The notes below the pieces were generated by a model, which had not been told where the DNA came from, did no database searches, and saw only the letters and a list, made by a program, of their open reading frames with translations. DNA of 64,000 nucleotides from Muricea muricata. Taxonomy: Eukaryota; Cnidaria; Anthozoa; Malacalcyonacea; Plexauridae. This document shows positions 1 to 48,840 of the stretch, piece after piece. Numbering within the stretch: position 1 is the stretch's first letter; the number at the start of each line of letters is the position of its first letter. The position numbers were made by a program, and so were the translations under genes. Location: positions 10,532,946 to 10,596,945 of the forward strand of contig OY979727.1 in assembly GCA_963855995.1 (NCBI GenBank). The letters are read 5' to 3'.

Positions 1-3000
1 TTGTACCTTAAATTTGTAAAATGTGCAATTTGTGATGGAATTCATCGAAACTTGGTGGAAATGACCAAATGACGCATTGTTTGTGAAAAAACTTGGTTCG
101 GAGTTCTTTCAATGCATTATAGTTATGTTTCAGCTCTCCTATGATTTTACCCATTTGGCCTCCAAATGGCTCTTTGTATGTGCTACCTGTCTTGATTCAG
201 AACCTTTGCATATTGCATCGAAATCAGTTGAATTTTTGCATGCATCACTGTAGCACTGGTCTTTTAAGAATAAACTAACTTTGGACTTTTTTCATTATAT
301 TTGGAAAAGCTTATTGGGAGATACCTCTTGTTGTAACTTTATTCTTCATTGTTACTTTTCCATAATTGTACCTGAATTTTGTAAAATGTGCAATTTGTGA
401 TGGAATTCATCGAAACTTGGTGGAAATGACCAAATGACGCATTGTTTGTGAAAAAACTTTGTTCGGAGTTCTTTCAATGCATTATACTTATGTTTCAGCT
501 TTCCCAATATTTTACCAATTTGGCCTCCAAATGGCCCTTTGTATATGCTACCTGTCTTGATTCAGAACCTTTGCATATTGCATCGAAATCAGTTGAATTT
601 TTGCATGCATCACTGTAGCACTTGTCTCTTAAGAATAAACTAACTTTGGACTTGTCTCATTATATTTGGAAAAGCTTATTGGAAGATACCTCTTGAGTTA
701 ACTTTATTTCTCATTGTTACTTTTCCATAATTGTACCTAAAATTTTTAAAATGTGCAATTTGTGATGGAATTCATTGAAACTTGGTGGAAATGACCAAAT
801 GACGCATTGCTTGTAAAAAAACTTGGTTCGGAGTTCTTTCAATGCATTATAGTTATGTTTCAGCTTGCCCATGATTTTACCCATTTGGTCTCCAAATGGC
901 ACTTTGTATGTGCTACCTGTCTTGATTCGGAACCTTTGCATATTGCATCGAAATCAGTTGAATTTTTCATGCATCACTGTAGCACTGGTCTCTTAAGAAT
1001 TAACTAACTCTAGACTTGTCTCATTATATTTGGAAAAGCTTATGGGGAGATACCTCTTGTTGTAACTTTATTTCTCATTGTTACTTTTCCATAATTGTAC
1101 CTCAAATTTGTAAAATGTGCAATTTGTGATGGAATTCATCGAAACTTGGTGGAAATGACCAAATGACGCATTGTTTGTGAGAAAACTTGGTTCGGAGTTC
1201 TTTCAATGCATTATAGTTATGTTTCAGCTTGCCCATGATTTTACCCATTTGGCCTCCAACTGGCACTTTGTATGTGCTACCTGTCTTGATTCAGAACCTT
1301 TGCATATTGCATCGAAATCAGTTGAATTTTTCCATGCATCACTGTAGCACTTGTCTCTTAAGAATAAACTAACTTTGGACTTGTCTCATATTTGGAAAAG
1401 CTTATTGGGAGATACCTCTTGTTGTGACTTTATTTCTCATTGTTACTTTTCCATAATTGTACCTTAAATTTTTAAAATGAGCAATTTGTGATGGAATTCA
1501 TCGAAACTTGGTGGAAATGACCAAATGACGCATTGTTTGTGAAAAAACTTTGTTCGGAGTTCTTTCAATGCATTATACTTATGTTTCAGCTTTCCCATTA
1601 TTTTACCAATTTGGCCTCCAAATGGCCCTTTGTATGTGCTACCTATCTTGATTCAGAACCTTTGCATATTGCATCGAAATCAGTTGAATTTTTGCATGCA
1701 TCACTGTAGCACTTGTCTCTTAAGAATAAACTAACTTTGGACTTGTCTCATTATATTTGGAAAAGCTTATGGGGAGATACCTCTTGTTGTAACTTTATTT
1801 CTCATTGTTACTTTTCCATAATTGTACCTCAAATTTGTAAAATGTGCAATTTGTGATGAAATTCATCGAAACTTGGTGGAAATGACCAAATGACGCATTG
1901 TTTGTGAGAAAACTTGGTTCGGAGTTCTTTCAATGCATTATAGTTATGTTTCAGCTTGCCCATGATTTTACCCATTTGGCCTCCAACTGGCACTTTGTAT
2001 GTGCTACCTGTCTTGATTCAGAACCTTCGCATATTGCATCGAAATCAGTTGAATTTTTCCATGCATCACTGTAGCACTTGTCTCTTAAGAATAAACTAAC
2101 TTTGGACTTGTCTCATATTTGGAAAAGCTTATTGGGAGATACCTCTTGTTGTGACTTTATTTCTCATTGTTACTTTTCCATAATTGTACCTTAAATTTTT
2201 AAAATGAGCAATTTGTGATGGAATTCATCGAAACTTGGTGGAAATGACCAAATGACGCATTGTTTGTGAAAAAACTTTGTTCGGAGTTCTTTCAATGCAT
2301 TATACTTATGTTTCAGCTTTCCCATTATTTTACCAATTTGGCCTCCAAATGGCCCTTTGTATGTGCTACCTATCTTATTCAGAACCTTTGCATATTGCAT
2401 CGAAATCAGTTGAATTTTTGCATGCATCACTGTAGCACTTGTCTCTTAAGAATAAACTAACTTTGGACTTGTCTCATTATATTTGGAAAAGCTTATTGGA
2501 AGATACCTCTTGAGTTAACTTTATTTCTCATTGTTACTTTTCCATAATTGTACCTAAAATTTTTAAAATGTGCAATTTGTGATGGAATTCATCGAAACTT
2601 GGTGGAAATGACCAAATGACGCATTGTTTGTAAAAAAACTTGGTTCGGAGTTCTTTCAATGCATTATAGTTATGTTTCAGCTTGCCCATGATTTTACCCA
2701 TTTGGCCTCCAAATGGCTCTTTGTATGTGCTACCTGTCTTGATTCAGAACCTTTGCACATTGCATTAAAATCAGTGGAATTTTGCATGCATCACTGTAGC
2801 ACTGATCTCTTAAGAATAAAGTAACTTTGGACTTGTCTCATTATATTTGGAAAAGCTTATTGGGAGATACCTATTGTTGTAGCTTCATTTCTCATTGTTA
2901 CTTTTCCATAATTGTACCTTAAATTTGTAAAATGTGCAATTTGTGATGGAATTCATCGAAACTTGGTGGAAATGACCAAATGACGCATTGTTTGTGAAAA

Positions 3001-6000
3001 AACTTTGTTCGGAGTTCTTTCAATGCATTATAGTTATGTTTCAGCTCTCCTATGATTTTACCCATTTGGCCTCCAAATGGCTCTTTGTATGTGCTACCTG
3101 TCTTGATTCAGAACCTTTGCATATTGCATCGAAATCAGTTGAATTTTTGCATGCATCACTGTAGCACTGGTCTTTTAAGAATAAACTAACTTTGGACTTT
3201 TTTCATTATATTTGGAAAAGCTTATTGGGAGATACCTCTTGTTGTAACTTTATTCTCCATTGTTACTTTTCCATAATTGTACCTGAATTTTGTAAAATGT
3301 GCAATTTGTGATGGAATTCATCGAAACTTGGTGGAAATGACCAAATGACGCATTGTTTGTGAAAAAACTTTGTTCGGAGTTCTTTCAATGCATTATACTT
3401 ATGTTTCAGCTTTCCCATTATTTTACCAATTTGGCCTCCAAATGGCCCTTTGTATATGCTACCTGTCTTGATTCAGAACCTTTGCATTTTGCATCGAAAT
3501 CAGTTGAATTTTGGCATGCATCACTGTAGCACTGGTCTCTTAAGAATAAACTAACTTTGGACTTGTCTCATTATATTTGGAAAAGCTTATTGGGAGATAC
3601 CTCTTGTTGTAACTTTATTTCTCATTGTTACTTTTCCATAATTGTACCTTGAATTTTTAAAATGAGCAATTTGTGATGGAATTCATTGAAACTTGGTGGA
3701 AATGACCAAATGACGCATTGTTTGTGAAAAAACTTTGTTCGGAGTTCTTTCAGTGCATTATAGTTATGTTTCAGCTTGCCCATGATTTTACCCATTTGGC
3801 CTCCAAATGGCACTTTGTATGTGCTACCTGTCTTGATTCAGAACCTTTGCATGTTGCATCGAAATCAGTTGAATTTTTGCATGCATCACTGTAGCACTGG
3901 TTTCTTAAGAATAAACTAACTTTAGACTTGTCTCATTATATTTGGAAAAGCTTATTGGGAGATACCTCTTGTTGTAACTTTATTTTTCATTGTTACTTTT
4001 CCATAATTGTACCTAAAATTTTTAAAATGTGCAATTTTTGATGGAATTCATCGAAACTTGGTGGAAATGACCAAATGACGCATTGCTTGTAAAAAAACTT
4101 GGTTCGGAGTTCTTTCAATGCATTATAGTTATGTTTCAGCTTGCCCATGATTTTACCCATTTGGTCTCCAAATGGCACTTTGTATGTGCTACCTGTCTTG
4201 ATTCAGAACCTTTGCATATTGCATCGAAATCAGTTGAATTTTTCATGCATCACTGTAGCACTGGTGTCTTAAGAATAAACTAACTCTAGACTTGTCTCAT
4301 TATATTTGGAAAAGCTTATTGGGAGATACCTCTTGTTGTAACTTTATTTCTCATTGTTACTTTTCCATAATTGTACCTCAAATTTGTAAAATGTGCAATT
4401 TGTGATGGAATTCATCGAAACTTGGTGGAAATGACCAAATGACGCATTGTTTGTGAGAAAACTTGGTTCGGAGTTCTTTCAATGCATTATAGTTATGTTT
4501 CAGCTTTCCCATGATTTTACCCATTTGGCCTCCAAATGGCACTTTGTTTGTGCTACCTGTCTTGATTGAGAACCTTTGCATATTGCATCGAAATCAGTTG
4601 AATTTTTGCATGCATCACTGTAGCACTTGTCTCTTAAGAATAAACTAACTTTGGACTTGTCTCATTATATTTGGAAAAGCTTATTGGGAGATACCTCTTG
4701 TTGTAACTTTATTTCTCATTGTTACTTTTCCATAATTGTACCTTAAATTTTTAAATTGAGCAATTTGTGATGGAATTCATCGAAACTTAGTGGAAATGAC
4801 CAAATGACGCATTGTTTGTTAAAAAACTTTGTTCGGAGTTCTTTCAATGCATTATAGTTATGTTTCAGCTCTCCTATGATTTTACCCATTTGGCCTCCAA
4901 ATGGCTCTTTGTATGGGCTACCTGTCTTGATTTAGAACCTTTGCATATTGCATCGAAATCAGTTGAATTTTTGCATGCATCACTGTAGCACTGGTCTTTT
5001 AAGAATAAATTAACTTTGGATTTGTTTCATTATATTTGGAAAAGCTTATTGGAAGATACCTCTTGAGTTAACCTTATTTATCATTGTTACTTTTCCATAA
5101 TTGTACCTTAAATTTTTAAAATGTGCAATTTGTGATGGAATTCATCGAAACTTTTTGGAAATGACCAAATGACGCATTGTTTGTGAGAAAACTTGGTTCG
5201 GAGTTCTTTCAATGCATTATAGTTATGTTTCAGCTTGCCCATGATTTTACCCATTTGGCCTCCAAAGGCACTTTGTATGTGCTACCTGTCTTGATTCAGA
5301 ACCTTTGCATATTGCATCGAAATCAGTTGAATTTTTGCATGCATCACTGTAGCACTGGTCTCTTAAGAATAAACTAACTTTGGACTTGTCTCATTATATT
5401 TGGAAAAGCTTATTGGGAGATACCTCTTGTTGTAACTTTATTTCTCATTTTTACTTTTCCATAATTGTACCTCAAATTTGTAAAATGTGCAATTTGTGAT
5501 GGAATTCATCGAAACTTGGTGGAAATGACCAAATGACGCATTGTTTGTGAGAAAACTTGGTTCGGAGTTCTTTCAATGCATTATAGTTATGTTTCAGCTT
5601 GCCCATGATTTTACCCATTTGGCCTCCAAATGGAACTTTATATGTGCTACCTGTCTTGATTCAGAACCTTTGCATATTGCATCGAAACCAGTTGAATTTT
5701 TGCATGCATCAGTGTAGCACTGGTCTCTTAAGAATAAACTAACTTTGGACTTGTTTCATTATATTTGGAAAAGCTTATTGGGAGATACCTTTTGTTGTAA
5801 CTTTATTCTTCATTGTTACTTTTCCATTATTGTACCTGAATTTTGTAAAATGTGCAATTTGCGATGGAATTAATCGAAACTTGGTGGAAATGACCAAATG
5901 ACGCATTGTTTCTGAAAAAACTTGGTTCGGAGTTCTTTCAATGCATTATAGTTATGTTTCAGCTTGCCCATTATTTTACCCATTTTGCCTCCAAATGGCA

Positions 6001-9000
6001 CTTTTAATGTGCTACCTCTCTTGATTTAGAATTTTTGCATATTGCATCGAAATCAAATGAATTTTTGCATGCATCGCTGTAGCACTGGTCTCTTAAGAAT
6101 AAACTAACTTTGGACTTGTCTCATTATATTTGGAAAAGCTTATTGGGAGATACCTCTTGTTGTAACTTTATTTCTCATTGTTACTTTTCCATAATTGTAC
6201 CTTAAATTTGTAAAATGTGCAATTTGTGATTGAATTCATCGTAACTTGGTGGAAATGAGCAAATGACGCATTGTTTGTGAAAAAACTTGGTTCGGAGTTC
6301 TTTCAATTCATTATAGTTATGTTTCAGCTTGCCCATGATTTTACCCATTTGGCCTCCAAATGACTCTTTGTATGTGCTACTTGTCTTGATTCAGAACCTT
6401 TGCATATTGCATCAAAATCAGTTGAATTTTTGCATGCATCACTGTAGCACTGGTCTTTTAAGAATAAATTAACTTTGGACTTGTTTCATTATATTTGGAA
6501 AAGTTTATTGGGAGATACCTCTTGTTGTAACTTTATTCTTCATTGTTACTTTTCCATAATTGTACCTGAATTTTGTAAAATGTGCAATTTGTGATGGAAT
6601 TCATCGAAACTTGGTGGAAATGACCAAATGACGCATTGTTTGTGGAAAAAACTTTGTTCGGAGTTCTTTCAGTGCTTTATAGTTATGTTTCAGCTTGCCC
6701 ATGATTTTACCCATTTGGCCTCCAAATGGCACTTTGTATGTGCTACCTGTCTTGATTCAGAACCTTTGCATATTGCATCGAAATCAGTTGAATTTTTGCA
6801 TGCATCACTGTAGCACTGGTCTCTTAAGAATAAACTAACTCTAGACTTGTCTCATTATATTTGGAAAAGCTTATTGGGAGATACCTCTTGTTGTAACTTT
6901 ATTTCTCATTGTTATTTTTCCATAATTGTACCTTAAATTTGTAAAATGTGCAATTTGTGATGGAAATCATCGAAACTTGGTGGAAATGACCAAATGACGC
7001 ATTGTTTGTGAGAAAACTTGGTTCGGAGTTCTTTCAATGCATTATAGTTATGTTTCAGCTTGCCCAGTATTTTACCCATTTGGCCTCCAAATGGCACTTT
7101 GTATGTGCTACCTGTCTTGATTCAGAACTTTTGCATATTGCATCCAAATCAGTTGAATTTTTGCATGCATCACTGTAGCACTGGTCTCTGAAAAATAAAC
7201 TAACTTTGGACTTGTCTCATTATATTTGGAAAAGCTTATTGGAAGATACCTCTTGAGTTAACCTTATTTATCATTGTTACTTTTCCATAATTGTACCTTA
7301 AATTTTTAAAATGTGCAATTTGTGATGGAATTCATCGAAACTTTTTGGAAATGACCAAATGACGCATTGTTTGTGAGAAAACTTGGTTCGGAGTTCTTTC
7401 AATGCATTATAGTTATGTTTCAGCTTGCCCATGATTTTACCCATTTGGCCTCCAAAGGCACTTTGTATGTGCTACCTGTCTTGATTCAGAACCTTTGCAT
7501 ATTGCATCGAAATCAGTTGAATTTTGGCATGCATCACTGTAGCACTGGTCTCTTAAGAATAAACTAACTTTGGACTTGTCTTATTATATTTGGAAAAGCT
7601 TATTGGGAGATACCTCTTGTTGTAACTTTATTTCTCATTGTTACTTTTCCATAATTGTACCTCAAATTTGTAAAATGTGCAATTTGTGATGGAATTCATC
7701 GAAACTTGGTGGAAATGACCAAATGACGCATTGTTTGTGAGAAAACTTGGTTCGGAGTTCTTTCAATGCATTATAGTTATGTTTCAGCTTGCCCATGATT
7801 TTACCCATTTGGCCTCCAAATGGCACTTTGTATGTGCTACCTGTCTTGATTTAGAACCTTTGCATATTGCATCGAAATCAGTTGAATTTTTGCATGCATC
7901 ACTGTAGCACTGGTCTCTTAAGAATAAACTAACTTTGGACTTGTTTCATTATATTTGGAAAAGGTTGTTGGGAGATACCTCTTGTTGTAACTTTATTCTT
8001 CATTGTTACTTTTCCATAATTGTATTTGAATTTTGTAAAATGTGCAATTTGTGATGGAATTCATCGAAACTTGGTGGAAATGACCAAATGACGCATTGTT
8101 TGTGAAAAAACCTGGTTCGGAGTTCTTTCAATGCATTATAGTTATGTTTCAGCTTGCCCATGATTTTACCCATTTGGCCTGCAAATGGAACTTTGTATGT
8201 GCTACCTGTCTTGATTCAGAACCTTTGCATATTGCATCGAAACCAGTTGAATTTTTGCATGCATCACTGTAGCACTGGTCTCTTAAGAATAAACTAACTT
8301 TGGACTTGTTTCATTATATTTGGAAAAGCTTATTGGGAGATACCTTTTGTTGTAACTTTATTCTTCATTGTTACTTTTCCATAATTGTACCTGAATTTTG
8401 TAAAATGTGCAATTTGTGATAGAATTAATCGAAACTTGGTGGAAATGACCAAATGACGCATTGTTTCTGAAAAAACTTGGTTCGGAGTTCTTTCAATGCA
8501 TTATAGTTATGTTTCAGCTTGCCCATTATTTTACCCATTTTGCCTCCAAATGGCACTTTTAATGTGCTACCTCTCTTGATTTAGAACCTTTGCATATTGC
8601 ATCGAAATCAAATGAATTTTTGCATGCATCACTGTAGCACTGGTCTCTTAAGAATAAACTAACTTTGGACTTGTCTCATTATATTTGGAAAAGCTTATTG
8701 GGAGATACCTCTTGTTGTAACTTTATTTCTCATTGTTACTTTTCCATAATTGTACCTTAAATTTGTAAAATGTGCAATTTGTGATTGAATTCATCGTAAC
8801 TTGGTGGAAATGAGCAAATGACGCATTGTTTGTGAAAAAACTTGGTTCGGAGTTCTTTCAATTCATTATAGTTATGTTTCAGCTTGCCCATGATTTTACC
8901 CATTTGGCCTCCAAATGACTCTTTGTATGTGCTACTTGTCTTGATTCAGAACCTTTGCATATTGCATCAAAATCAGTTGAATTTTTGCATGCATCAGTGT

Positions 9001-11215
9001 AGCACTGGTCTTTTAAGAATAAACTAACTTTGGACTTGTCTCATTATATTTGGAAAAGCTTATTGGGAGATACCTCTTGTTCTAACTTTTTTTCTCATTG
9101 TTACTTTTCTATAATTGTACCTTAAATTTGTAAAATGTGCAATTTGTGATGGAATTCATCGAAACTTAGTGGAAATGACCAAATGACGCATTGTTTCTGA
9201 AAAAACTTGGTTTGGAGTTTTTTAAATGCATTATAGTTATGTTTCAGCTTGCCCATGATTTTACCATTTGGCCTCCAAATGGATCTTTGTATGTGCTACC
9301 TGTCTTGATTCAGAACCTTTGCATATTGCATTAAAATCAGTGGAATTTTTGCATGCATCACTGTAGCACTGGTCTCTTAAGAATAAACTAACTTTGGACT
9401 TGTCTCATTATATTTGGAAAAGCTTATTGGAAGATACATCTTTAGTTAACTTTATTTCTCATTGTTACTTTTCCATAATTGTACCTTAAATTTTTAAAAT
9501 GTGCAATTTGTGATGGAATTCGTCAAAACTTGGTGGAAATGACCAAATGACGCATTGTTTGTAAAAAAACTTGGTTCGGAGTTCTTTCAATGCATTATAG
9601 TTATGTTTCAGCTTTCCCATGATTTTACCCGTTTGGCCTCCAAATGGCCCTTTGTATGTGCCACCTGTCTTGATTCAGAACCTTTGCATATTGCATCGAA
9701 ACCAGTTGAATTTTAGCATGCATCACTGTAGCACTGGTCTCTTAAGAATAAACTAACTTTGGACTTGTTTCATTATATTTGGAAAAGCTTATTCGGAGAT
9801 ACCTCTTGTTGTAACTATTCTTCATTGTTACTTTTCCATAATTGTACCTGAATTTTGTAAAATGTGCAATTTGTGATGGAATTTATCGAAACTTGGTGGA
9901 AATGACCAAATGACGCATTGTTTGTGAAAAAACTTGGTTTGGAGTTCTTTCAATGCATTATAGTTATGTTTCAGCTTGCCCCTGATTTTACCCATTTGGC
10001 CTCCAAATGGCTCTTTTTGTGTGCTACCTGTCTTGATTCAGAACCTTTGCATTTTGCATCGAAATCAGTTGAATTTTGGCATGCATCACTGTAGCACTGG
10101 TCTCTTAAGAATAAAGTAACTTTTGACTTGTCTCATTATATTTGGAAAAGCTTATTGGGAGATACCTCTTGTTGTAACTTTATTCTTCATTGTTACTTTT
10201 CCATAATTGTACCTGAAATTTGTAAAATGTGCAATTTGTGATGGAATTCATCAAAAGTTGGTGGAAATGACCAAATGACGCATTTTTTGTGAAAAAAGTT
10301 GGTTCGGAGTTTTTTCAAGGCATTATAGTTATGTTTCAGCTTTCCCATTATTTTACCCATTTGGCTCCCAATGGCTCTTTCTTATTGCTCGCTATATTGA
10401 TTCAGAACCCTTGCGTTTTTCATCGAAATCGGTTGAAATTTTTCACGCATCACTGTGGCACTGGTCTGTTGAGAATAAACTAACTTCGGACTTGTCTGGT
10501 TATTTTTTGGAAAAGCTTAGCATTAGATACCTCTTGTTATAACTTTTTTGCTCATTGCTATTTATACCAGAATTGTGCCTGAAATCTTGAAAATGTGCAA
10601 TTTGTGATGAAATTCATTGAAACTTGGTGGAAATGACCAAATGACGCATTGTTTGTGAAAAAACATAGTTCGGAGTTTTGGAAATGCATTATAGGTATGT
10701 TTCAGCTTGCCCATGATTTTACCCATTTGGCTCCCAATGGCTCTTTCTATGTGCTACCTTTCTTGATTCAGAACCTTTGCATTTTGCATCAAAATCAGTT
10801 GAAATTTTGCAAACATCACTGCACCACTTGTCTCCTAAAAGTAAACTAACTTTTGGCTTGTCTGGTTATATTTAGAAAAGGTTAGTGGGAGTATCTCTTG
10901 TTTTAAATTTTTTCGTCATTGTTAGTTGTTCCAAAATTGTACGTGAAATTTTGAAAATGTGGAATTTGTGATGGAATCCATTCAAACTTACTGGAAATGA
11001 CCAAATGATGCATTTTTTTATTAAAAACTTAGTTCTGGATATGCATTATATTTATGTTTCACGTTGCGGATTATTTTACCCCTTTGCCCTCCGAAAGGCT
11101 TTCTATTTTCTTCCTTGCTTGGTTCAGAACCTTTGCATTTTGCATCGAAATCGTTTTAAATTTGGCATGCATCACTGTACCGCTGGTCTCTTAAGAATAA
11201 ACTAACTTTGGACTT
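1..11215. repeat. 365-bp satellite array, about 31 copies, in a VPS13B intron
   Basis: Head-to-tail tandem array. Using the motif TTGTACC as unit start, copies begin near 1, 366, 731, 1095, 1457, 1822, 2184, 2548, 2912, 3277, 3642, 4007, 4371, 4736, 5101, 5465, 5830, 6195, 6560, 6926, 7291, 7655, 8020, 8385, 8750, 9115, 9479, 9842, 10207, 10573 and 10937, so the period is 362-366 bp. Most copies look nearly identical; the last three (from 10207) are clearly more diverged, as expected at an array edge. The array ends about 165 bp before a VPS13B splice acceptor and runs off the left edge of the window, so it lies in an intron of that gene. Each unit carries 60-80 codon open stretches on both strands; these start mostly at TTG and are by-products of the repeat. 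Confidence 0.97.
10207..11215. repeat. degenerate 3' edge of the satellite array
   Basis: The last three units (10207, 10573, 10937; the last one partial) keep the order of motifs but carry many more substitutions than the inner copies, for example near 10381-10450 and 11041-11110. This gradient suggests that unequal exchange homogenises the interior while the border drifts. Confidence 0.85.
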
Positions 11216-11378
11216 CTCTCGGCAAGACGTTTCCCCCATGTTTGCATGTAATGTAGCTTTTCAGTTTTTCTCTTGGCAAAGTGATATCTCGCTTGTAAAC
11301 TTGTCTAATTGTTTTCTCATTTACCAGGATAGCTTTTTCCCATAAAAACAGTCTTCACAACTTTTTTTGAATTTTCAG

Positions 11379-12587
11379 GAGCTCAGTTTTCCCGTCACGT
11401 TCCTCAGCGGCAAGATTCATGAACTTCACATGCACGTTCCTTGGACGAAGCTGTACTACGAACCTGCCGTTATAACTATCAACACAATCGAATGCGTCCT
11501 AAAACTAAAAGAAAACAATTTCACGGCAGAAGGCGTCGACGAAGCCATAGAGGTTCAACAAGTCGACATCAAACCGTCTTCAGATTCTACCACGCCTGAA
11601 CCAGACACCGAAAAAGCCATCCCGCCTGGCTATGTCCAAAGCTTGCTCAACAAAGTTATTTACAATTTGACAGTCAAAGTTAATAACTTCATACTAAAAT
11701 ACGTTGAGGATGATATCGTCTTGTCCATTAATGTTAAATCGGCCGAATTTCACAGCGCCAACGAAAATTGGGTGAAGGCGTTTGTGGACGTGACCGCTCC
11801 CGACTGGATACTTCATAAAATGTGTAATATATCCGACTTGACCGTGTGCTTGGATAGGCGGAATGCAAGCGGTGTTATAGAGATGTACCAGGACCCGCTA
11901 GCGTACAGGTGTAATCTGTCTTGCCGAATGCAAGTTTACTACGACAAGGAGGGCTTCCATTTGCCCCTTGAGAAAAACTTGAGTGTTTATTGTGAATGTT
12001 TAGAAGTCTCCATAACAGACCAGCAGCTTCCGCTGTTGTTGAGACTTCTTAAATTAGGACTTGGTCTATACTACGGCACGCTAGATCTTCCGGGTTGCGA
12101 ACCGTTACCCCATATCGCAAAAGACTTGATCGATAAGAAAGGAGAAATGTTTGAATCAAGCATTATGAACCAACTACCCAGTAGCTTTGGTCCGCCGGCC
12201 GAAACTGAACTTCCAGATACCGGATGGTTATCGTGGGCTTATTCTATGGTGCCCGGTTTGGGTGGTGAGCAAAAAGGCCCAGATGCCTCGCTTACTCCGC
12301 TTGTGTCAAGATTCGGTGTCTACATTTCCCAAGCGAGTTTGAGTTTTAAAATAACCGAGCCGTTAAGTGAGGGTAATTTTCTTGGCGCTCAGAGATTCGT
12401 ATTTAAGCCGATTTTGACTCTTGAGGCTTCCGGCGTGGCACAAGAAATGATCACTAAAGGGAGTTCATTCTTTGATTTTGAAATGGGAGTGACGTCAGTG
12501 ACTGGATGGTTGGTCGATACCTGTGTGTGTAGGAATCAAAACAAAGAACCAAATGCTGATGATGACGGGAACGCGAGAGAACCAGAG
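11379..12587 (+). CDS. VPS13B: VPS13B exon w1 (chorein-domain region)
   Basis: Acceptor TTTTCAG ends at 11378; donor GAG/GTATTA at 12588; phase 0 to 0; window residues 1-403, the longest exon of the gene. It begins ELSFPVTFLSG, matching about residue 50 of human VPS13B, and continues with HVPWTKL, VITINTIE, GYVQSL and LKYVEDDIVLS, all strong VPS13B landmarks. The segment TGWLSWAYSMVPG matches the conserved tryptophan-rich stretch of the human protein. Confidence 0.96.
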
Positions 12588-15500
12588 GTATTACTGTGCT
12601 AAGAATAATAGAGAGTTTTTAGCTCGAGTTAAACTGGAAAACATTGATGTGGAAACATTGTTTTCATGTTTTGTCATGTTTGCCATTCCCATTGTGGGTA
12701 AACTTGAACACGTTTTGCGAAGGAACATTAGATGGCTCTTATCTTAAAGTATTGCAGCTTAATGTTTCATTAAAAATGTTTCCTGACGTGGACAAAACAG
12801 GCAAATATCGATAGAAAACATAATGTTCATGCAACAATGTTTCACAATGTGACAAACAGGGAATCTCATTAATAGGAAACATAATGTTTCGTTGATAAAT
12901 GTTTCTCGAGGTGGACAAAACAAGAAACCATTGATAGAAAACATGATGTTTCATTAACAATGTTTCTCGAGATGGACAAAACGAGTAAACATTGATAGGA
13001 AACAATGTTACATCAACAATGTTTCTAGCGGTGGACAAACAAATAAACATTGGTGGGGAACATAATGTTTCATTAACAACATTTCCTGAGGGAAATAACA
13101 GGGAAACATTGATAGGAAGAATATAATATTTCAGACATAATAGAGATTATGGGTGCTGACCTCACATTTTTGTTATGCTTTATTCAGGAAGAATTATTTT
13201 TAAAGGTTGGCGGCAAAGATACGAACGCCGACAAAGGTATAGCTTTTCTGAAGGGTTCTTTGTTCGATCTTGAATCGAGCTCAACAGAACAGCCACAGCT
13301 GACGGCGAATGCCGAAGAATTTTCACGCAAGAATGCCGAAGCGAACGTCCTGTCGAGATTTGGCGCGATGTTTTTTGAATATTTATACGTGATGGAGATA
13401 GAAAACAATGATGACAGCAGTTATTACGAGTCGACGCCCGCGGTAAAGGAGGAATCTCATCAGCGGATCATCGTCGGGCCATCTACGTTGGAAGTTACGA
13501 GCGGAGTGGTTCATCGAATGGAAATGGTTATGAAATTGGCTGAAGATGATGCTTATCTAAGGAAAGGTAAATACGGTGCGGATGCACTAGATACCTAATG
13601 TCCGGTAGAGTAGACATCCATAAGATCTTGCTTTTAATTGAATTGAATTGAATTTGATTTTTTATTTATTGAATTTTTATTTAATAAATTTGTTACACAT
13701 ACAAGGAAATTAATTACAGAAAATAAATAATATTACAATGGAATAACCAAAGTAAATAAATAAAATGACGGATAAAATCTACACATTGATTAAGTTTGTT
13801 TATGCGACGAGAGGGCGACTTCTTTAATGTGGACAATTTGTATATATCAGATAGAAATACATATACAAACCTCGAAAGCCTATATCTTCCGTAGACTCGT
13901 ATTGATCTGATACTACACAGAAAACCGCATTTAAATTCGCATTTTCGGGTTTCTAGACCGCCGCTCTATCAATTGAGCTATCAAGCCAACTGGGATTGGT
14001 AGCGAGTCTTACCCAATTTAAGCGCAGGAAATACTTTCATGACGACTTAATGCTGCTCTATACGAGTTTAAATCCCACTCAAAACAGCGAAGTCTCTCTA
14101 GTGTCAGATTAATATGAATCTTGTTTTTCATATCTCTAAGGATGATTCTAAAATAAAACTACATTTCCCGTATTGTATAACATTTTGTAACCAAACTATC
14201 TTATTTTCGCTTATATGCCGCTTTTCTTGCTTAGGTCAAAATATTCTCTGTAATGGCAACTTCCCATTATAGGTTATGACTTTAAGTTCCCTTTTTTCTC
14301 CAGAAAAAGATGAAATATTTTACGATGATTTCGTACAAGATCAGCTGCTGTCAGGCAATGTGTCACAACGTCACTTGCACGTGACGGTCCTGGACTCCAG
14401 TTTCATAATCTTCATGGCAGATCACGTGAAGACTGCGCAGACTCAGAACGAATCTACAAGGCCATCCGAAGGAACACTCGACGAAATTCAGGAGGAAGAA
14501 AAAAAGGTGTTGCATTAGATCCAGTATTACCTAGTTTACTTTACTAGGCCTAAATGGCAAAAAGTCTTGAGCCTGCGGTATTGATTTCCATATTGTTCAT
14601 AGTTATCAGCAATATTAAACTATGTTAGTATTTTTGCAAGTGGATATAAGAAACCCGACGTTCTGATTGGTAGAATTTGTAAAAACAAATTTCCAAAATG
14701 GCGACTAGCCTATTTTTTCTGTAAATTCACTTGTGTAAAAATACTTAAACGATTATCCGCCTCAGACTTGGTGATTTTTAGGGAATATTCACCTCCACTT
14801 CGCCTCGGTGAATATTCCCCGATAACCACCTCACCCTCTACGACAACTACAGACAATGTGATAAGCACCATTTGACATTGTTCAATGTTGTTTTTATCAA
14901 CTTTGAAGAAGTGATGAGGATGAGTTTTTGTTTTTGTAATTTCCATTTATCTGATTACTGTAAAAATGTGCTTCCTAAGTACATCTGAAGTGCCAACTAT
15001 TACAACCACAGACAGTACCGAAGCCAGCCCGAGAATTGGGTCATGCTATTCAAATTTAATCATAATTATTTATTTCTTTAGAAATTGATTCCTTATACTA
15101 TCTATAAACACAGCAAATTAGCATTTGCATGACCAAATATCGAGCTGGCTTTTCCACTGCTCCTTGACTGCAACTGGAAATCTTTAATTACGCTTCCCTA
15201 TTTTTTCATATCCTTTTTGCCAGTACCATTCTATCTAACATTAATTGTTTCAGTCGTGTGCAAGACATTTGGCTCCTACGACTGGCTGCGTTTTGCAAGT
15301 GGAGAGATTGGACTTTCAAAAAACTTCACCGATGTTTCCCGCGGAAATGATCAAGTTGTTGAAAGAGAAGAAAGGCACCAAAGCCCTTCTTAAACGTGCT
15401 CACAGCAATATGTTTGTGAAGGTGAGAATATTTTAAGTTTGAGAATTTTTTTAGAAAGATATTTCAAACGTGGTGGTGTAGTGTAGGTAGCATTCTACAA

Positions 15501-30500: not shown

Positions 30501-33500
30501 ATAATCGTTTCGTTTTCATCCACACCATACCATACCACGCCACATCACACCACACCATATTATACCACACCATATTACACCATACCATGCCACACCATAT
30601 TTTACACACCACACCATACTTTTCCACACTATCCATATTATACAACACCATTTTATACCACACTACACGACATACCACAACACACTAAAACATACCATAT
30701 CAAACCATACCATACCAAATCACACCACACCATACTTTTTCACACCACACCATTTCACACCACTCCACACCACACCACAACAGAACAAACCACACCATAC
30801 TATACCATACCATACCATACCATACCACACCACTCCACTCCACTCCACTCCACTCAACCTCATAGCACACCGTAACACACCATATCTCGTTCTATTTTTT
30901 TACTGGCAAGTATTCATTAATTCACCCTGTTTTTCATTTTAGCCATCGCTAAAAAGTTCGAAGGCTACACTTTACAAGAGGAAATCCCAAAATCTCAAGA
31001 ATTCTTTCGCGTGATGGTAGAAAATTCGACTATAATAATGAAATCTTGGCCAACAGACACTTTGCAATGTCTGGTCTGGAGTAATGCTCATGCTGATGTA
31101 CTAGACTATCGCGAATTGAGGTGGAAATCTCTGCTGAGTCCAGTTGATTTGACATTAGCTTTCGTCAAGAACGAAATTACACAGGTTTGTGGATCTGGTA
31201 AAATGCTTTCACTTGACGAAGACGATATAGCATAATTAGTATAAGAAATGATGGTAAAAGTGCTAAAGTTTTGTATCAATACCTTTTCCAAGAGTACCTT
31301 CGCTACAAAAACACCGCTGAACGTTTCAAGGTTTGCTAACGGAAGATAATTCTGTATTATTACTATACTACATGTATATACTGAAAACAGGATTACTCGG
31401 TGACTTTTAAGATACGAGTTTTATCTTTTGGTGTTGAACACAATATTTCACCACTTCAAGATAAAATTAACATCTTCGCACCACAGTGTAATATCCTGTA
31501 CCTACTTGTTTTTGTTTTGTAATCATTAGAGAGGCAACAAGACTAAAGAAAATTCAGGCGCCTGTTCTCTTGACGTGAGCTGCGGCGACATCAAAGTGGA
31601 TGCCAGTCAGAGCAGAATTCACACGCTGTCTGCGGGATTACTGGCATGGCAGAATGGAGAAGATCCTGTCTTCAGCCATTTTATCATTTGTAACAACACG
31701 AACCACGCGGTCAGGTTTGGGCAGGTAATGTGTGCAATTTTAAAACATTGTAAACACTTTTGCTGCTTTAAATTAGTAAATATGTTCTTTTCTTTGATTT
31801 ATAGTAGACAGTAAGATGCTAAAAATACACAGTGACATACATATTACAACATATATATTGTTACATATTTTCCATATATCCTTCACTAGTGCAGATATTT
31901 ACCACGCAATCATTTCAATATTTTTGTGTTTTCAAAATGGCGACCTTTCTGAACAAGCAATGAACCAATTATCACCTTTGTTAAAAAAAACAACATTTTT
32001 GTCCGAAAATTGAAAAAAAGTACAAGCTAATGATGCACAGGTACTCTTTTAGTTTAAATAATATGATAAATTAGTTTAAAAAGCTACGTTTTTAGCATTA
32101 TCAATCGACTATATTTACAGACGTGGGTTTTTAAATTGTTCAAAAACGACTATTTATACAATAATCACAGTTCACCCCTGTCGTTTAGTCAAGTTTTTTT
32201 ATTGTAACATATTGTAACAAAAACTCCCGACACTCGAGTTTGTCTCATGCTGTACTTTTTTGTTTTTGCACGTCATGACGTCATCTGTGATCTATTAGAT
32301 TACAAACGCAAGCAGAAGTTAAATCTATGTATTTAGAATAGTAGACAGAACATTACACGACTGTTTAATGATATGACTTTTAATCTTCTCTTGGTGAAAA
32401 AAATATCCTACTCATTCGATCCGTTCCTCCAGAAAATACTTGACTTAACCACTTGAAAATTTAATTCATAGGCGTGCCTTTCAGGATATCTGCTATCTCT
32501 CGGCTAAGTTTTAGCCAATTTCTTTTAAACTTTTGCTGAATGCAGCCATATAAATGACAAATAAAATAACTTTATAGAATTTATTAGATTTCAAGCTACA
32601 CGGATATTTTATTTTCTTCAAAAATTTCTTGCCACACCTAGGATGGTACGGAGGAAAGTATTCTCTTGCGAAGTGAACACGTCGCATTCTACAGCTGGAC
32701 CACACTCAATGATTTATGTCATCAGAAATTGCACCTAAGTTTGGACGGGGAGAGTCGATGGTGTGAACCTTTTGGCATCGATAGTCCCGGAGTTCTTAAC
32801 CGAGCTATCCAATATAGTGTACACACTGCAACCCTGATTATTGAAATAAAGAAAAAATCTGGTTTACAACGCGAGGTTGGTTTATTAACACAAATATTTT
32901 AAGCGAAATACTCCTGGGTCAATTGTAGGAAACTGAATTAACTCAAAATTCCAAGAAAATTTTCCAAGAAGTTAATTCTAAACTTGAAAATATTTTCTCA
33001 AAAGAATTTGTCTGCATCCATGGAAGTTTTCTTTTCTCAATCTTTTAAGAGAAAGGCATACAATGAAATCCACTGAATAAAATAGTGGGTTAAAATTTTA
33101 ACCAGAGGTTAACACTAAACTAGTCGCGGCACCTGGCATAAATCCAGGCTATCAGAAAACTTCTTGAATAATTAGCTCAAAATAGAAATCCATTTTTTGA
33201 TTTCACCTACTTGGCTAAAAACTGCCCTTTCTTTTATGTTGTATATGTTTTCATTCAACGCCTTTCTATATTGCATCGAAATCATGTAGAATTTTTCCCA
33301 CTTCACTGAATAAACTCGCCCATATGTAAAACATAAGTTTGGGCGAGTAAAGATGTGCTGCATAAAGTATGCTAATGTTGACCACTAAGTTTCACCTTCT
33401 CCCACTTTCTTTCACTACTTTCATCTATATGGCTAACAACTGGACTTCTGTGTTGTATCTGCTTTCATTCAGCTTCTTCCTATGCTGCAACGAAATCACT

Positions 33501-36500
33501 TGAAACTTTGCAAAAATGATCAAATCACTCATTCTAGATGAAAAAACTTTGTTTAGACCAAGAAGCATGTCCATTATTGCTGTTTCATATTTTGCCTGAT
33601 TTTACCTATATGGCTAACCACAGCCATCTGTGTTGTATCTCTTTCCTTCAGCTTTTTCCTATACTGCATCGAAATCATGTAAAATGTTTCACACATCACC
33701 GAATCAACTCGCCGTTATGTAAAACATAAGTTTCCACTGGTGAGGATGTATTTCATCGAGTTTGCTGGTGTTAGCCGCTAATTTTTACTTTCTCCCACTT
33801 TGTTATATGTGCTTGAATTTTGGAAAGTTTGCAAAGTGCGACAAAATCACTCATCATTGTAGATGAAAAAAATTGTTTTGGACCCCAAAGCATGTCTATT
33901 ATTGCTGTTTCATATTTTGCCTGATTTCACCTATATAGCTAACCACAGGCCTGCTGTGTTGTATCTCTTTTCATTCGGTTTCTTGCTATACTGCTTCGAA
34001 AATTTTTCAACATCGATATTGACAGCATAGTCTTAACCTTGTTTCAACGGTGGGAATGTAATGTTGATCGAATTTGCATTTTCAATCTTCTGTCAACGTC
34101 GATTCAACGTTTTGGCCTGTAAGTCTAATTTTTTCTCAGTTTTTTTTGTTCTTGTTTGACAGGTTGTAATCCACAGTAGTCACGTGGTTCGAAACTATAC
34201 AATACATGATATCGAGGTTCAACTTCTTCAAAACCCAGCCGTCACTCAAGTCACTAGTCCTGCACTTCAGGTATAGCATTTCATGCATTTGTTCTCATTT
34301 TTCCTGAATGCCTGCGACTGTAACTGTAACTTTATTTAGTACAGTTTATGTATTTGTCTTACTCTCTCAACTTTGCGGGGACAAATTTTGGGGTTTTTTA
34401 GCTTGTTAAATTTGAAATGAAGTCAATACAAGACCATGACATTTTGCAAAACATTGGTTTAACTTTTTGAGCTGTTGTTGTTGTTTTTGTCGTTGTTGTT
34501 GTTATACTTTCTGTTGTTGAGTTGAGTTTAGTCACAGTATAGGGAATGAACAGTAGGGGTCACTCAGCAGTTCAACATGTCCCCCTATTTTTTATGCAAT
34601 TGACTGGCCGGAATAATGGTAGAAAGGCTAGTTTCTATTGGCCAGGAAAGGAAATTGACTGTACAGAATCTGCATAATGAACGTGCCTAATGCAAGATGC
34701 GCGGCTACACAAACTTCAAAGGTTTCGACTTGAGTGGCCTTTCTGTTTATTTTCTATTCTGTAGTTTACTTGTTTAGTAGAGTAACAGTATGTCTTCTCT
34801 GTGGTTTTACTTGAATATTTTTGCAATTTTTTTAAGGTTCTTCATAATATCATAGTTCATTCCCAATCCTCCTCGCCTTCTTACGTCATCTCACACGGTG
34901 GCTTGGCGGGAATGCGTGTCCGATTGCGCGGCGAGACCACGTGGTCCGGTACTCTCCCAATGGAAGACCAGATGCCAAATTACAAACAGCATTGTGTGGT
35001 CCAGGTGCGGGATATTTCTGAGCGATATCTTGCTCTTGTATATTGTATTATGAAATTTATGAATAATTTAAAAATAATTAATATGAATTATATTCTTATC
35101 ATAACTTATTACAATTAATTATTATAATTTATTATAATTATTGATAATTATAATATTAATTGCATTAATTATACTAATTCTATATAACTATTAATTTTCA
35201 TAATTAATCAATGCAGATTACATCACATGCATACCCCTGCAGTCCCCATACAAATTGATATAAATCATCGTGGTTGTAGGATAAAAATTACAACTCACCT
35301 TTATGATTTAATCCATAATTTGTTTTCAAACTTGCGATTGGGTATTCCATGCAATTTAACACAGCCAGTCGAGTTGGAAAAATTACCTTCCTTATAAGCA
35401 ACGAACACAAGTGAGCTCTATTTATATTTGGAGTAAGAACTTCAGCCATTCGACCCTTAGAAAAAATTCAGCTGAAGATGGGAAATGGGGCAGTGTGTGC
35501 TTTGGGAATTACTTACCAGTTTTTGCTATTACAGATGCTCGGAACAAAAGAATTCAAAAATTTCTACATTTGGTATAATGCTGTTTGTGTGGATTCACTT
35601 ATTGGACAGATTGAGGTAGGTGAAAGCTTAAAGCATGGGCAATCAAAGTACTGGAAACGCTAGCTGACTCCCCTGTGAATGACATCCATGTTACGGACTG
35701 GTACCCATTACTTTGGAACCCTGTAACTTCACTTTGAATATATTTCGAGACTTTTTATTTACGTATTTTAAAGAAGAACGGCAATGTCTATGCTGTAGTC
35801 GACTCCTCAAACTCCTTCTGGGTGTAGCAAAGCTCTGCGTATTTGTTATTAGCGAGTTTTAGCTGTTGTCGATACAATGTACAATTTGCTTGACTTTTTT
35901 CTAGATATCAACCTTGTGTTAAATATAAAGGCAATATGACCGAAAGTATATAAACGTGTTTCATGCTAAATTTTAAAATACATATGCTCAATGACATATA
36001 GACAGAGCGAAATGTATAATCGTGCAAAATACCTCAAAAACTTACCTCTACAGTCTGTTTCATCCAGAAGGAATCTTCAGATGGTAGGTCTATATCAGAA
36101 TCTTCAGATGGTAAGTTTTTGAGGTATTTTGCACGATTATATATATATATCTTCTCCAATTTTTAGATATCATTTTCTCCACTCTTCATTGTCAAAAACT
36201 ACCTTTCTCAAACCATCCAACTGACTGCAGTATCTACTTCGGGCGACGTCACCACTGCCCACGATGCACCGGGAAAAGCTCAAGAACATCAACTGTTTGA
36301 CCTACCGCCCGACTCGTGGCATTACGTCACTTTCAAATTGCCCGATGCTAAAATCTCCTCTGATCCCTCCGTGCCCCTGAATACCACCCTCCATGAACTC
36401 ACAGACAAGGTGAAACAAGGCGATGAAAGTGAAGAGTTGTCGAAAGCGCAATGGCCGTATTCATCGTCGAACGTCCGAAAAACGTAAGATTTTTACCTCT

Positions 36501-39500: not shown

Positions 39501-42500
39501 CAAACTTCGCATGGTTATACATTCAGTATTTTAAAACATTTGGCAAACAAACTTTGCAATTTCTGCTGATAGATTTTGTTCTTCCTGCTTAGATCTGTAT
39601 TGACAATAGTCAGTTTATATTTATGTGTTTTTTTTCTTTTAGTTAAAAGAAACAGCATTCAGTGCCAACACCCGAATTAGCTTAGAAACTGGAAAAGCCA
39701 TTGTGCCCCAAGGGATCCCGTTTTGGGATATATCACCTGGAACGAGCACTCCAGACAACCCTGCAGTCGACTCCATACATGTCCTCATATTTGGCCTATC
39801 TAAACCACCTGACATCCCTGATGCATCCCCTTCTATCCAATGGAGTCGCCCACTCCGCATACAAGACGGTATCGTAAGACAATGTCTGTCCCTTGAAACC
39901 TCGGACCAAGATCAACCTCTGCCAGTAGTCGTTATCACTCTTATTGAAAACAGCCTTACAAAAGTCGTCATAACCGAAGACCAAGTACCCCGGATGTTGT
40001 TAACCAATCATTGCACGACTCCGATACAGTTCGGCCAATGTCCGAGCAATTCCGACAAGCAGAACTCGAAGGGCTCAAAGATATCAGGCCGGGATCTCGC
40101 GGTGTCAGAAAATTTAGAGCAACACACGACAATCCCTCGATTAGGTAGTAATTCGTCCGTCTATTACGAACCCCCGGAAATGCGGGATGGATTTCTGACC
40201 AAAAACTCTCAAAAGGTTCCTAAAATACGCGTACAGATGCTAAAGCCGGCGGAGGTAAGGGAAGTATTGAGTGATAAGCAAGATGAAACGCGAGCCAAAC
40301 CCATATACATGCCTCAGGGTTGGAGCGAGGCCATTGATGTAAACAGCGTTGGAAAAACTGCTTATAATCTGCCCGGCAATTGCAGATTACATGTGGACGT
40401 TGTCAGGAAAACATCGTTTCTTACGCAAGTTGTTTTCTCGGAAACTTTTAGTGAGGCAGAAGACAGCACTCCAGTGCAAGTAGTTGACAACGTCAAGGTG
40501 GGTGGTGTATAGCTTTTTTGTTTATAAAGTTATGAAGGTTCAATTTCCCGATAGTTTCTTGAAAATAGGTTAATTTTGGTGCTGTTATTGCACGGTTAAA
40601 ACTGGTAGTATTTTGGCTAAGAAGACTAGAAACCAATTTGTCGAATAGAATCACTCAAAATTATGAACAAACCTGGAAACAAATTGTAGCAGATCTGACA
40701 GTTGTTTTCACATGCATGTTCCAAGTTGTTGCAACAAATTTAGAACAAGCTGTCGACAACTTGTAACAGCTTGATGGGACTATCACACTTGTCACACGGT
40801 TGCACCAACAAGACTGGTACACAGTAGTCATGATATAACAATATTGTTACAGCCTTGTGTTGTCAACTTTGTCACAACTTTGTTACAACAGATTTGTATC
40901 AGAGTTGTTGGGACAACCTTGTATCGAGACTGATGTTCACCTCAAACACAATTTTTTGACGGCTTGATGAAAGGAAAGGTATCTCGACTGGGATTGGCCT
41001 ATTTCAGTGCAGTTAATCGCAAACAGGAGTGCGAATATCTGCAACAACAGTGCAAAAATCTGTAACAACAGAAGAACCAATCAAATGCGACGTTGGAAAA
41101 CGGGAGTGAAAATTTTCTTAACAAAACTCGTGAGTTTTTCAATGACGCCATTCAAAAGCACACTCGTGCATGTTATTTCCAAATTGCACTCGAAACCATG
41201 CTTTTACTTATACAAAATAAAACAAATTCCGAAAATAGACATCTTGTATTCTCGATATTCAAGAAAACAACGGAGTCGGCAATGTTTCTCTTTATTAACA
41301 ATGTCTTCGGCGATGTCTATTTATATGTTTCATTTTGCTATGTACAAGTTGTGAGACGTGTGTACCTAATCTTTCGATATTCTGTTTCATTCTCTTTCCT
41401 CAGGTCAACTGCAATGTGTCCAATTTCAGCGTATGTCTTCACGACGAATCCTCGTTGATCCATCCCACCGCAGTTTTTCATCTCAATCTCGAAGATCTCG
41501 CAATCTCAGCGATCCGTAGCGACAATCTTCGCACCCGCATAGAGCTTTCCCTTGCCGAAATACAGATTGACAATCAGATGTCCGATGACTTTTATCACTT
41601 TCCCGTCGTGCTCCTGCCATTGGAACACGAATCTCGCAGCACGAAACGCAAAGAGAAAAGAACCATCAAATCTGTACTGTGTTTCAATCTTGATTTCTCT
41701 TCAAGCGTGCAGAAAACCCACGTACATGTCTTAAGCATTCAGCTTGAACCACTGTCAGTTTTTGTCGAAGATACATTGTTGTACCGACTTGCCGGGATGT
41801 TGGATTCGTTTGTCCTGCCGGGATCCGACCGGCCGACCGAACCTTGCGGCGAAGGCCGAATTTACTCGAGGCAATCTGATGAAAACCTTACCGAAGGTCA
41901 AGCGGTAGCCGACAGCGCTCGATCGTTATCCGAAGATAGTACGATATCTGACGAAGATATACAAGCGTTGGCTTTAGCATCAGCTGTTATAAGTCCAGTT
42001 TTGATAGATCGGATCTCTATTGAGCCTATCTACGTTGCGGTCACGTTTCACGCCTCCGTCAAACTGTTCGTATCGGCCAATCATACACCACTGTTTTTCT
42101 CAAGGTTTGAAATGACGTCATTGTTTACAGACCCAGCATTCCTAGCGCAGCTACTAGCAGTGCATTATGGGTACTCGGCATTACTGAAAGTTGGTTGGGT
42201 TGTTGGCTCGCTGGATATCATTGGCAGTCCAGCTACTTTTCTGCGCAGTTTCGGTCAGGGCGTAGCGGACTTTTTCTATCTGCCCTACGACGGACTGACA
42301 CGCGGGCCAACCGCTTTCGTGACGGGCATGACACGCGGGATGTCCTCCTTCATGTCGCATATTTCAGCGGGGGCTCTGACCTCAGTGACTAACCTCGCGT
42401 CCAGTATCTCGCGAAATTTGGACAGATTGAGTTTTGATGAACAGTATGTGAGATTTCAGGAACAGGAAAGAGCTGATGGGGTGCCAAGAAGAGTTATCTC

Positions 42501-46650: not shown

Positions 46651-47394
46651 TGGCCGTTCTGTGGCCCCAGCACGAGTAAGAAACCCATCCACCGGAATAA
46701 CCCACAAGAATTTTTTTTGGATAAATGTTTGAGACTGAGAAAATATCGGGTAATTACTAATCTAAAATGGCCAGACTTTGTGATTGGACTTTGTGATTTG
46801 TTACACTTTAGAAAACTAATTTCTGTAGTTTATTGTGTTTCATTGTTATAACCAACCACTAACACAACTTGTCAGTGTAGGCTGGTTGCGATTTGATATA
46901 TAAATAAGAAGCTAAAATGTGCTTTTTATGGCTCGGATGAAGCGATTTCACCATTATTTTTCACCTAGATGTTTCTACTTCTTTATTTCTAGTTTACCTA
47001 CTTAAATCGCCCAAAAAAAGCCTGTAAGGGGCGTTTTTGTATTTTTTTATTTACACGCTGATGAGGAAGGAAAGATCTGTTCGAGTTTTCACTAGCAAAC
47101 ATCTTTCCCTCCGTGGCAAAGAGGTAAAAGTTACTCTTTTTATTTGCCCATGCCGTTTGAATTTGATTTTGGGCGGATCGGGGATCGTTCAAGTTCAACT
47201 GAGGTTGGTAAGAATTTAGTTCTTCCTTGGTCCGATCGGTCCTGGATCCATCCAAAACTCAAGTGAAAGCTGGACGTGAAGTGCAGGAAAAAACTAGGTA
47301 GTACCGAGAGGCCAAGGAGGCAAAGTTATTTGAATAATGTTTTTAACTAATATTTAAGCAGATTTTTTTAATTTGACTGTTGGGGACAGGCCGG

Positions 47395-47570
47395 TAGGGT
47401 TGGTGCATTGAAGAATTTTCGCCGTTATTTCCCTTCGCTCAAGAAGACAAGTTGTCTTCGTCGAGAAATAACGACGAGAAGACCTCAAGGCACCACTAAT
47501 ACGCCACATTGTAAAACTACAGTGTAATGGTTTAGCTGACTAAACCACTACACTTTGCCAAATGTACATG
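47395..47570. repeat. nested hairpins inside left arm of the foldback
   Basis: CGCCGTTATTTC faces GAAATAACGACG around AAGACAAGTTGTCTTC, and TGGTTTAGCTGACTAAACCA is itself palindromic. The same set appears inverted at about 49620-49760. Confidence 0.8.
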
Positions 47571-48029
47571 GCGGACTTCTTTTCAATGCTATGGATGCGC
47601 AAACACTTTAAAACCTTTAAAACAAGTGTTTTCTTTTAGGAAAGAGTCAAAGACGACAACGCTTACTAAATCAAAGCCGTGTAGTCATGTTTTAAGTTGT
47701 TATCTATGTTTAACGATCTTTTATGCGGAGTCTTGGCAAGTCTTTGCGAAGTCTTTGCTTTCCTTCTTGATCGAGCTTTATATGCCATTGCGTTCAGGGT
47801 CCTTGATACAGGAGTCATTTCTTTATGGCCTTGGGTTTAATTCCCAAACACTGAATGGCAGTCTTCAGCTCTTTCAAGTAACGAGATAACATTGCAACAA
47901 GATGGCACTGCGTTATCATTTTGCCTGTAACCAATTTGTTAACAAGTATAGCTAACGCGTAAACAACAACAGACAAACACAAAGTGTATTTCTAACTCTG
48001 CGATTCAATTTGTATAGTCAACGAGAAAG

Positions 48030-48840
48030 CTTGACGTTCACAGCTTGCATAAAAGCGTTTTATATATCACAAGTAAACTAAGTGCATCGCGGTTGTTTTA
48101 AATCTCTGCACTAAAGCTACCATGCAGTGCCACCAGTATTTTACACAAACTGAATTTAACAATGATTTTGAAATAGAGTCGAAATATCACCGCAAAACTG
48201 TTGTCTTGTTGTTAACAGCTCATATCTTGAGTTTACAACATGCTGTTCTTCAGAGAATGTTTTTTCTTATATTTTATTAAATTGTCTGCTGGTAAAGGTT
48301 TTTGGACCATTTTGTCAAGATATCATCTCATTACAAGTTGATAACTAATTTACGATTCAGTTTGTGTAAAATACTGGTGGCACTGCATGGTAGCTTTAGT
48401 TCATAGACTTAAAACAACCGCAATGCACTTAGTTTACTTGTGATATGTAAAAAACATACTCCGAAGAACAACATGTTGTAAACTCAAGATATGAGCTATT
48501 AACAACAAGGCAACAGTTTTGCGGTGATATTTCGACTCTATTTGAACTCTATTTCGACTCTATTTCAACTCTACATAACTTTGAAATAGAGTTGAAATTG
48601 TTGAAATATCACCGCAAAACTGTCTTGTTGTTCATAGCTCATATCTTGAGTTTAGAAGATGTTGTCCTTCGGAGTATGTTTAATTTTTTCTTATATTAAC
48701 AAGATGGCACGGCACTGGTAAATTTAGTTCGGGGATTGTAAGACAACGGCGATGCGCTTAGTTTACTTGTGATATATAAAGTGCATGCTTATATGCAAGT
48801 TGTGAACGTCAAGCTTTCTCGTTGATACAAAATGAACCGC
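48030..48840. repeat. rearranged core of the foldback
   Basis: Block a (ACAAGTAAACTAAGTGCAT and following) and block b (ATATCACCGCAAAACTG to AGCTCATATCTTGAGTTTA) occur in the order a, b, inverted a, inverted b, b, inverted a. A simple palindrome would give a, b, inverted b, inverted a. Confidence 0.75.

Follow-up and report, generated by a model that had tools for sequence, protein, structure and literature searches.

A dispersed 365-bp satellite forms a 49-kb array between the first two coding exons of a VPS13-family gene in the octocoral Muricea muricata

Array and host gene

The 64,000-nucleotide stretch of Muricea muricata DNA analysed here (hereafter the window; it corresponds to C12:10532946-10596945 in a genome assembly of 453 Mb that comprises 74 contigs) opens inside a real, assembly-supported and unusually large satellite array, which lies in the intron between the first two coding exons of a gene of the VPS13 family, presumably VPS13B. 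The ~365-bp unit of this array belongs to a satellite family dispersed across the genome and is not private to VPS13B. The explanation that we prefer, with a probability of roughly 0.85, is that a dispersed octocoral satellite family present in this intron grew there and became homogeneous, carried along as a passenger of the intron.

Tandem Repeats Finder reported one array at window 1-11220 (period 365, 30.8 copies, 93% matches, score 19055), and BLAST with one unit set its right end at window 11219, 4 bp from position 11215, where an initial annotation of the window had ended its more than 11 kb of 365-bp satellite. That annotation had also supposed that the array extends past the window, and this proved correct: N-free upstream DNA read as array in the unit BLAST back to C12:10495223, and the whole array occupies C12:10495223-10544164 (48,942 bp), window 1-11219 being the right-hand 11.2 kb of its 48.9 kb. 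Unit BLAST resolved 135 whole or partial ~365-bp units, arranged head to tail with constant length (132 of 134 unit-to-unit steps were 361-365 bp and the other two 366 bp); the array has no gaps, and the sequence to its left and right is not satellite. The mean pairwise identity of the core units was 95.3%, and the window units other than the three at the right edge were 92.9-100% identical to the query unit; the last three units showed 83-88% identity to the consensus and the first, partial unit 90%. The homogeneity ascribed to the array by the initial annotation is therefore a property of its core and does not extend to its last three units. Tandem units of constant length that evolve in concert identify the array as satellite DNA.

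A whole-genome search with the VPS13_N profile (PF12624; 35 of 291 candidates scored) placed profile positions 1-49 at C12:10492258-10492404 (+) and positions 47-237 from C12:10544318 onward (+). Exon 1, located 2.8 kb left of the array, encodes MLETYITPIL...LEK, has in-frame stops upstream and ends in phase 0 at the donor GAGAAG/GTACGT, while exon 2 starts exactly at window 11379, the position first annotated, behind the acceptor TTTTCAG/GAGCTC. Exon 2 scored above the PF12624 cut-off, and exon 1 scored 59.7 bits (E 3.4e-14), which lies under the whole-protein cut-off of 80. With the VPS13_N domain in consecutive exons, the gene is a member of the VPS13 family. The joined exons matched solved VPS13 proteins (6cbc, E 2.1e-15; VPS13C, 7.2e-15; VPS13A, 5.7e-13; 4 distinct sequences), and a 3' exon matched solved VPS13A and VPS13C (2 distinct sequences); the PDB matches listed, 4 and 2 respectively, include no VPS13B chain. 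The subtype letter B is our assumption, taken from the initial annotation and from N-terminal similarity; the searches themselves identify the VPS13 family only.

The two coding exons flank the array in the correct order, on the same strand and in compatible phase, so that its annotated position inside an intron holds at the level of the VPS13 family; the upstream exon, whose absence would have spoken against that position, is the one at C12:10492258-10492404. The intron measures 51,919 bp, of which the array makes up 94.3%. Because the array lies within this intron downstream of a coding exon, any transcript joining both coding exons must carry the array and then remove it, and we infer from the splice-site sequences that VPS13B pre-mRNA contains the array and that splicing removes it.

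Satellite family across the genome

A 26-base motif of the unit had 1487 forward and 859 reverse matches genome-wide at no more than 2 mismatches (2346 in total, 134 of them in the VPS13B array), and the reversed-motif control had 0. The unit therefore also exists elsewhere in the genome, which the initial annotation had proposed to check. The places of the first 100 motif matches were listed and 10 of 397 candidates were scored in the unit search, which gives a partial view of the distribution; among the matches listed, satellite arrays occur on C3, C4, C5, C7, C8, C9 and C12. The largest block of the family seen covers ~230 kb at C7:11.914-12.142 Mb, where satellite was present at 20 of 27 sampled points (2 of the 20 partly covered) and throughout four 10-kb stretches, with an interruption near 11.970 Mb. 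This block lies at ~79-81% of its contig, a position similar to that of the VPS13B array at 78% of C12. Unit positions 271-285 were the same in all array consensuses compared. Kin of a diverged satellite relative at window 33190-34010 (Table 1) form an array of 353-bp spacing at C10:1870788-1886495.

Homogenisation and block duplication

We compared 271 units in ten groups, dropping hits that covered 280 unit positions or fewer, the left-edge partial unit among them; this sample leaves out most of the family, including arrays listed on C9, C10, C11 and elsewhere. All 131 VPS13B core units and all 110 C7 units had their nearest relative in their own array, whereas the small arrays were mixed: all three units at C12:3.18 Mb had their closest relatives in the VPS13B array, and of the 7 C5 units 4 were nearest to their own array. 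Identity within the VPS13B array (95.3%) compares with means of 85-90% to the other arrays compared, and three small arrays were not clearly more alike within than between (88.4% for C12:3.18 Mb, 85.8% for C3 and 88.0% for C5). A tree was built from 66 units of this sample, namely 18 of the 131 core units, 18 of the 110 C7 units and all 30 others. In it, the C7 units formed one group with support 100/99 and the 18 VPS13B units one group with support 93/89, adjoined by the 3.18-Mb array of C12.

Within the VPS13B array, a block of 20 units (7.3 kb) is repeated at an offset of 33 units, 12.0 kb away, at a mean unit identity of 99.93% (gaps not counted); 15 of its 20 paired units are identical and 5 differ. 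The diagonals of the unit identity matrix held eight runs of at least 5 units, with further recurring runs of 11 units at offset 32, 7 at offset 16 and 7 at offset 10. A megablast self-search of the array for blocks >1 kb returned none, which we took as a fault of that search. A strict higher-order repeat was rejected, the best lags (16, 33, 32 and 8) lifting the mean identity from 95.3% to at most 96.1%; block duplication fits better. The initial annotation had suggested that a repeat array of this size could alter local recombination, and the near-identical 7.3-kb blocks 12 kb apart support recombination or slippage here, barring an assembly fault.

Signals in base composition were not retained. 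The observed/expected CpG ratio was 0.36 in the array, compared with 0.72 over the 12.3 kb that precede it and 0.90 elsewhere in the window, but the low array value reflects a single 365-bp consensus containing 4 CpGs and is thus no independent sample. A possible methylation footprint (CpG C-to-T/G-to-A of 0.080/0.071 versus 0.023/0.017 elsewhere) came mainly from one of the four CpG sites and was not used. Donor-like sites (at least 7 of 9) occurred at 0.63/kb on the sense strand versus 1.40/kb in 20 first-order simulations and 1.84/kb on the antisense strand; since the array is one 365-bp sequence repeated, each unit accounts for a difference of only ~0.3 site, and we dropped the reading that splice signals are avoided on one strand. 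AATAAA occurs 129 times in the array and its complement 111 times, with no clear direction.

Inverted second copy of the gene

A second, inverted VPS13B copy lies at C12:9226130-9257572 (-), 1.29 Mb from the intact gene. Its exon 2 region (C12:9257027-9257572, from the VPS13_N search), its middle intron repeat (C12:9235049-9236117) and its 3' exon stretch (Table 1) are spaced much as in the intact gene. A DNA search of the genome with exon 1 returned 1 match, in the intact gene only, and none for the duplicate. The exon 2 regions align at 93% identity with a 5-base gap inside coding sequence, past the matched stretch, and the duplicate is thus probably a pseudogene. For the duplicate exon 2 match the profile search printed an unexplained open frame of 755 aa, whereas the six-frame list of the fetched 6 kb shows frames of 274, 179 and 158 aa; we relied on that list and on the 5-base gap rather than on the 755-aa frame.

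The duplicate carries ~2.4 satellite units at its 5' end, and this satellite ends at the unit phase where the window array ends, abutting the unique flank that the two copies share. Because the right junction is common to both copies, satellite adjoined this exon before the duplication. We favour a course in which the array of the intact gene gained its present size and sequence type after the duplication; the alternative, also compatible with the data, is that the duplicate lost most of its own satellite. A more speculative suggestion, which we regard as doubtful though conceivable, is that satellite makes the VPS13B intron recombinogenic, its block-duplicating array having also supplied one breakpoint of the inverted duplication, given the satellite at the 5' end of the duplicate and the missing match to exon 1; if true, a satellite within an intron would generate truncated copies of the gene that hosts it.

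Origin of the array and alternative explanations

Under the preferred explanation, a short stretch of the family would already have been in the intron before the segmental duplication of VPS13B, and on the intact gene unequal exchange or replication slippage would have raised it to about 134 units, in part through duplication of multi-kilobase blocks. The middle of the array would have been homogenised while its edge units decayed, and the gene would tolerate the array because neither the real donor nor the real acceptor falls within it. The position and length of the array, the exons at either side, the spread of the family, the junction in common with the duplicate and, among the units compared, the homogenisation of the array are observed; we infer that the growth proceeded by unequal exchange or slippage, that it came later than the duplication and that the array is without a function of its own.

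Several observations weigh against this account. The nearest-relative result holds for the 271-unit sample only, the support of 93/89 for the VPS13B group falls below the 95/80 that the tree tool sets as its mark, and in the 66-unit tree the three right-edge units form no single group. Assembly could account for part of the copy number and of the 99.93% block. The two long units of the duplicate are nearer to C4-type units (best match elsewhere C4, 94.3%) than to the array (mean 90.0%), and its last unit jumps from phase 102 to phase 276; with generic units and this phase jump, the shared junction rests on the unique flank and ~27 bp of satellite, not on whole orthologous units. Transcription across the array, finally, is predicted from splice-site sequence.

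That the arrays are the central repeats of an inserted mobile element, like the Helentron-type Cg_HINE of the oyster, would agree with the dispersal of short arrays over many contigs, with the retrotransposon or integrase-like frames at four (L014, L016, L017 and L018) of five loci Pfam-scanned at chosen open frames out of the six loci L014-L019, and with the start of 6 of 12 array blocks at unit phase 184-186. Comparison of the flanks of the VPS13B array (3.0 kb left, 2.8 kb right) with these six loci, the flanks of the C7 array lying outside it, revealed no element-like ends in common; beyond the satellite, the flanks matched only L016 and L019, over 34-82 bp. For three of the six phase-184 starts, the sequence just before resembles by eye the older diverged family, and the one in L017 follows an insertion, so the phase clustering is at least partly an alignment effect. 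Lacking common flanks at the six loci compared, an element origin was rejected as a working reading, and we consider it clearly unlikely. A misjoin of the array into VPS13B or a strong over-extension of it by the assembly is less probable again. Satellites are the usual site of misjoins, and the block recurring at 99.93% is what such a fault might leave, yet every fetched stretch is free of N, the exons to the left and right belong to a single gene and keep the right order, strand and phase (at the level of the assembly this speaks against the misjoin envisaged in the initial annotation), 5 of the 20 paired units of the repeated block differ, and the right junction recurs in a diverged duplicate, which argues that satellite adjoining this exon is real.

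Functional VPS13B transcription might instead start inside or to the right of the array, which would then be upstream in practice and not intronic. The distance of 52 kb between the first 49 residues and the remainder speaks for this, but exon 1 is open, encodes a conserved VPS13-family N-terminus behind an in-frame stop, has a good donor and is found once in the genome by DNA search; we rate such a start as slightly less probable than an assembly fault. Least probable of all is a selected function exerted on VPS13B through satellite RNA, small RNAs, a chromatin mark or a transcription delay. Drosophila offers precedents in the 1.688X repeats and the Y-loop introns, and the constancy of unit positions 271-285 and the low array CpG would be compatible with selection; against it, the same satellite is present at many unrelated places, the duplicate intron lost or never had a large array, and the CpG value reflects a single consensus.

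At L017, ~1.6 kb (positions 3020-4612) separate satellite pieces of phases 177 and 185, and the ends of this segment look reverse-complementary by eye; it is apparently a DNA element inserted in a unit. The 6 of 12 block starts at phase 184-186 are not fully explained by the alignment effect.

Relation to known systems

Some arrays of the Drosophila 1.688 satellite are intronic. Satellite-filled introns and dispersed euchromatic satellites are already known, and the VPS13B array is real but not unprecedented. The Drosophila Y genes kl-3 and kl-5 have gigantic introns of megabase simple repeats that make up >99% of the locus and belong to a spermatocyte programme (PMC6508621); there as here, satellite forms most of an intron of a protein-coding gene, but the VPS13B array consists of 49 kb of a complex 365-bp unit. 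The Drosophila 1.688 or 359-bp satellite (PMC7919458; see also PMC7642928 and PMC11228850) resembles ours in its unit of ~360 bp and in combining large blocks with short euchromatic arrays, a likeness of unit length and layout; X enrichment and a dosage role are features of 1.688. In the Pacific oyster, Helentron Cg_HINE elements carry satellite-like arrays (PMC7492417), which likewise are short and dispersed in a marine invertebrate, whereas the six other loci compared here have no common element flanks. The 188-nt satellite of Porites, like ours, forms tandem arrays in an anthozoan; it differs in unit length and in a telomere-like palindrome, and it is reported as intergenic and as not found outside Porites (PMC10236652). 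Searches of an open-licence library for octocoral satellite DNA and for VPS13B intron repeats brought up no paper that, judged by title, describes the present array.

The biology matches what is expected from known satellite behaviour. What the locus adds is that, beyond the insects too, a large animal gene can be seen to house a long complex satellite, clearly and with the support of the assembly. It also comes with its own control, since the same intron end exists in a diverged copy that has ~2.4 units. This pair of array and duplicate could serve to date the expansion and to probe the effect of intron satellite length on transcription or splicing.

Other features of the window and genome

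Table 1. Features of the array and its host gene in the window
Feature	Window position	Strand	Basis
Right-hand part of the 365-bp satellite array	1..11219	+	Tandem Repeats Finder; unit BLAST; upstream continuation
Three decayed edge units closing the array, 82-86% to the query unit	10196..11219	+	unit BLAST
Unique intron sequence and acceptor (GAATTTTCAG), from array to exon	11220..11378	+	conserved in the duplicate copy
Open frame beginning with the second VPS13B coding exon (VPS13_N profile 49-237); its end is the frame stop, not a mapped exon end	11379..12602	+	profile search
Old, diverged satellite relative (72% identity with the unit across 98 bp), lying in an intron further along VPS13B	33190..34010	+	BLAST
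Stretch with VPS13B 3' exons, recurring at 94% in the inverted copy (C12:9226130-9228970)	39643..42507	+	DNA comparison

A DnaJ_C frame lies ~2.2 kb upstream of exon 1, and the window had no Rfam match at gathering scores. Within VPS13B, window 40667-40966 holds a partly self-complementary sequence of ~250-300 bp with dozens of genome copies at 77-88%, which looks like a short interspersed or miniature inverted-repeat transposable element-like repeat. A degenerate CCATA/CCACA pentanucleotide array with strong GC skew lies at window 30520-30899, and related short elements with inverted arms 89-95% complementary lie at 18013-18284 and 54562-54781. A large imperfect inverted repeat at window 46891-50292 (~3.4 kb overall, with arms of up to 269 nt at 88%) is perhaps a foldback element.

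The identity of the host follows from its mitochondrial contig, the 19,292-bp C74, which carries a MutS_V match at C74:15972-16499 and COX1. Mitochondrial MutS is a mark of Octocorallia, and the host is thus an octocoral. A nuclear copy of the mitochondrial COX1, with one stop, is present at C1:38414782-38416095.

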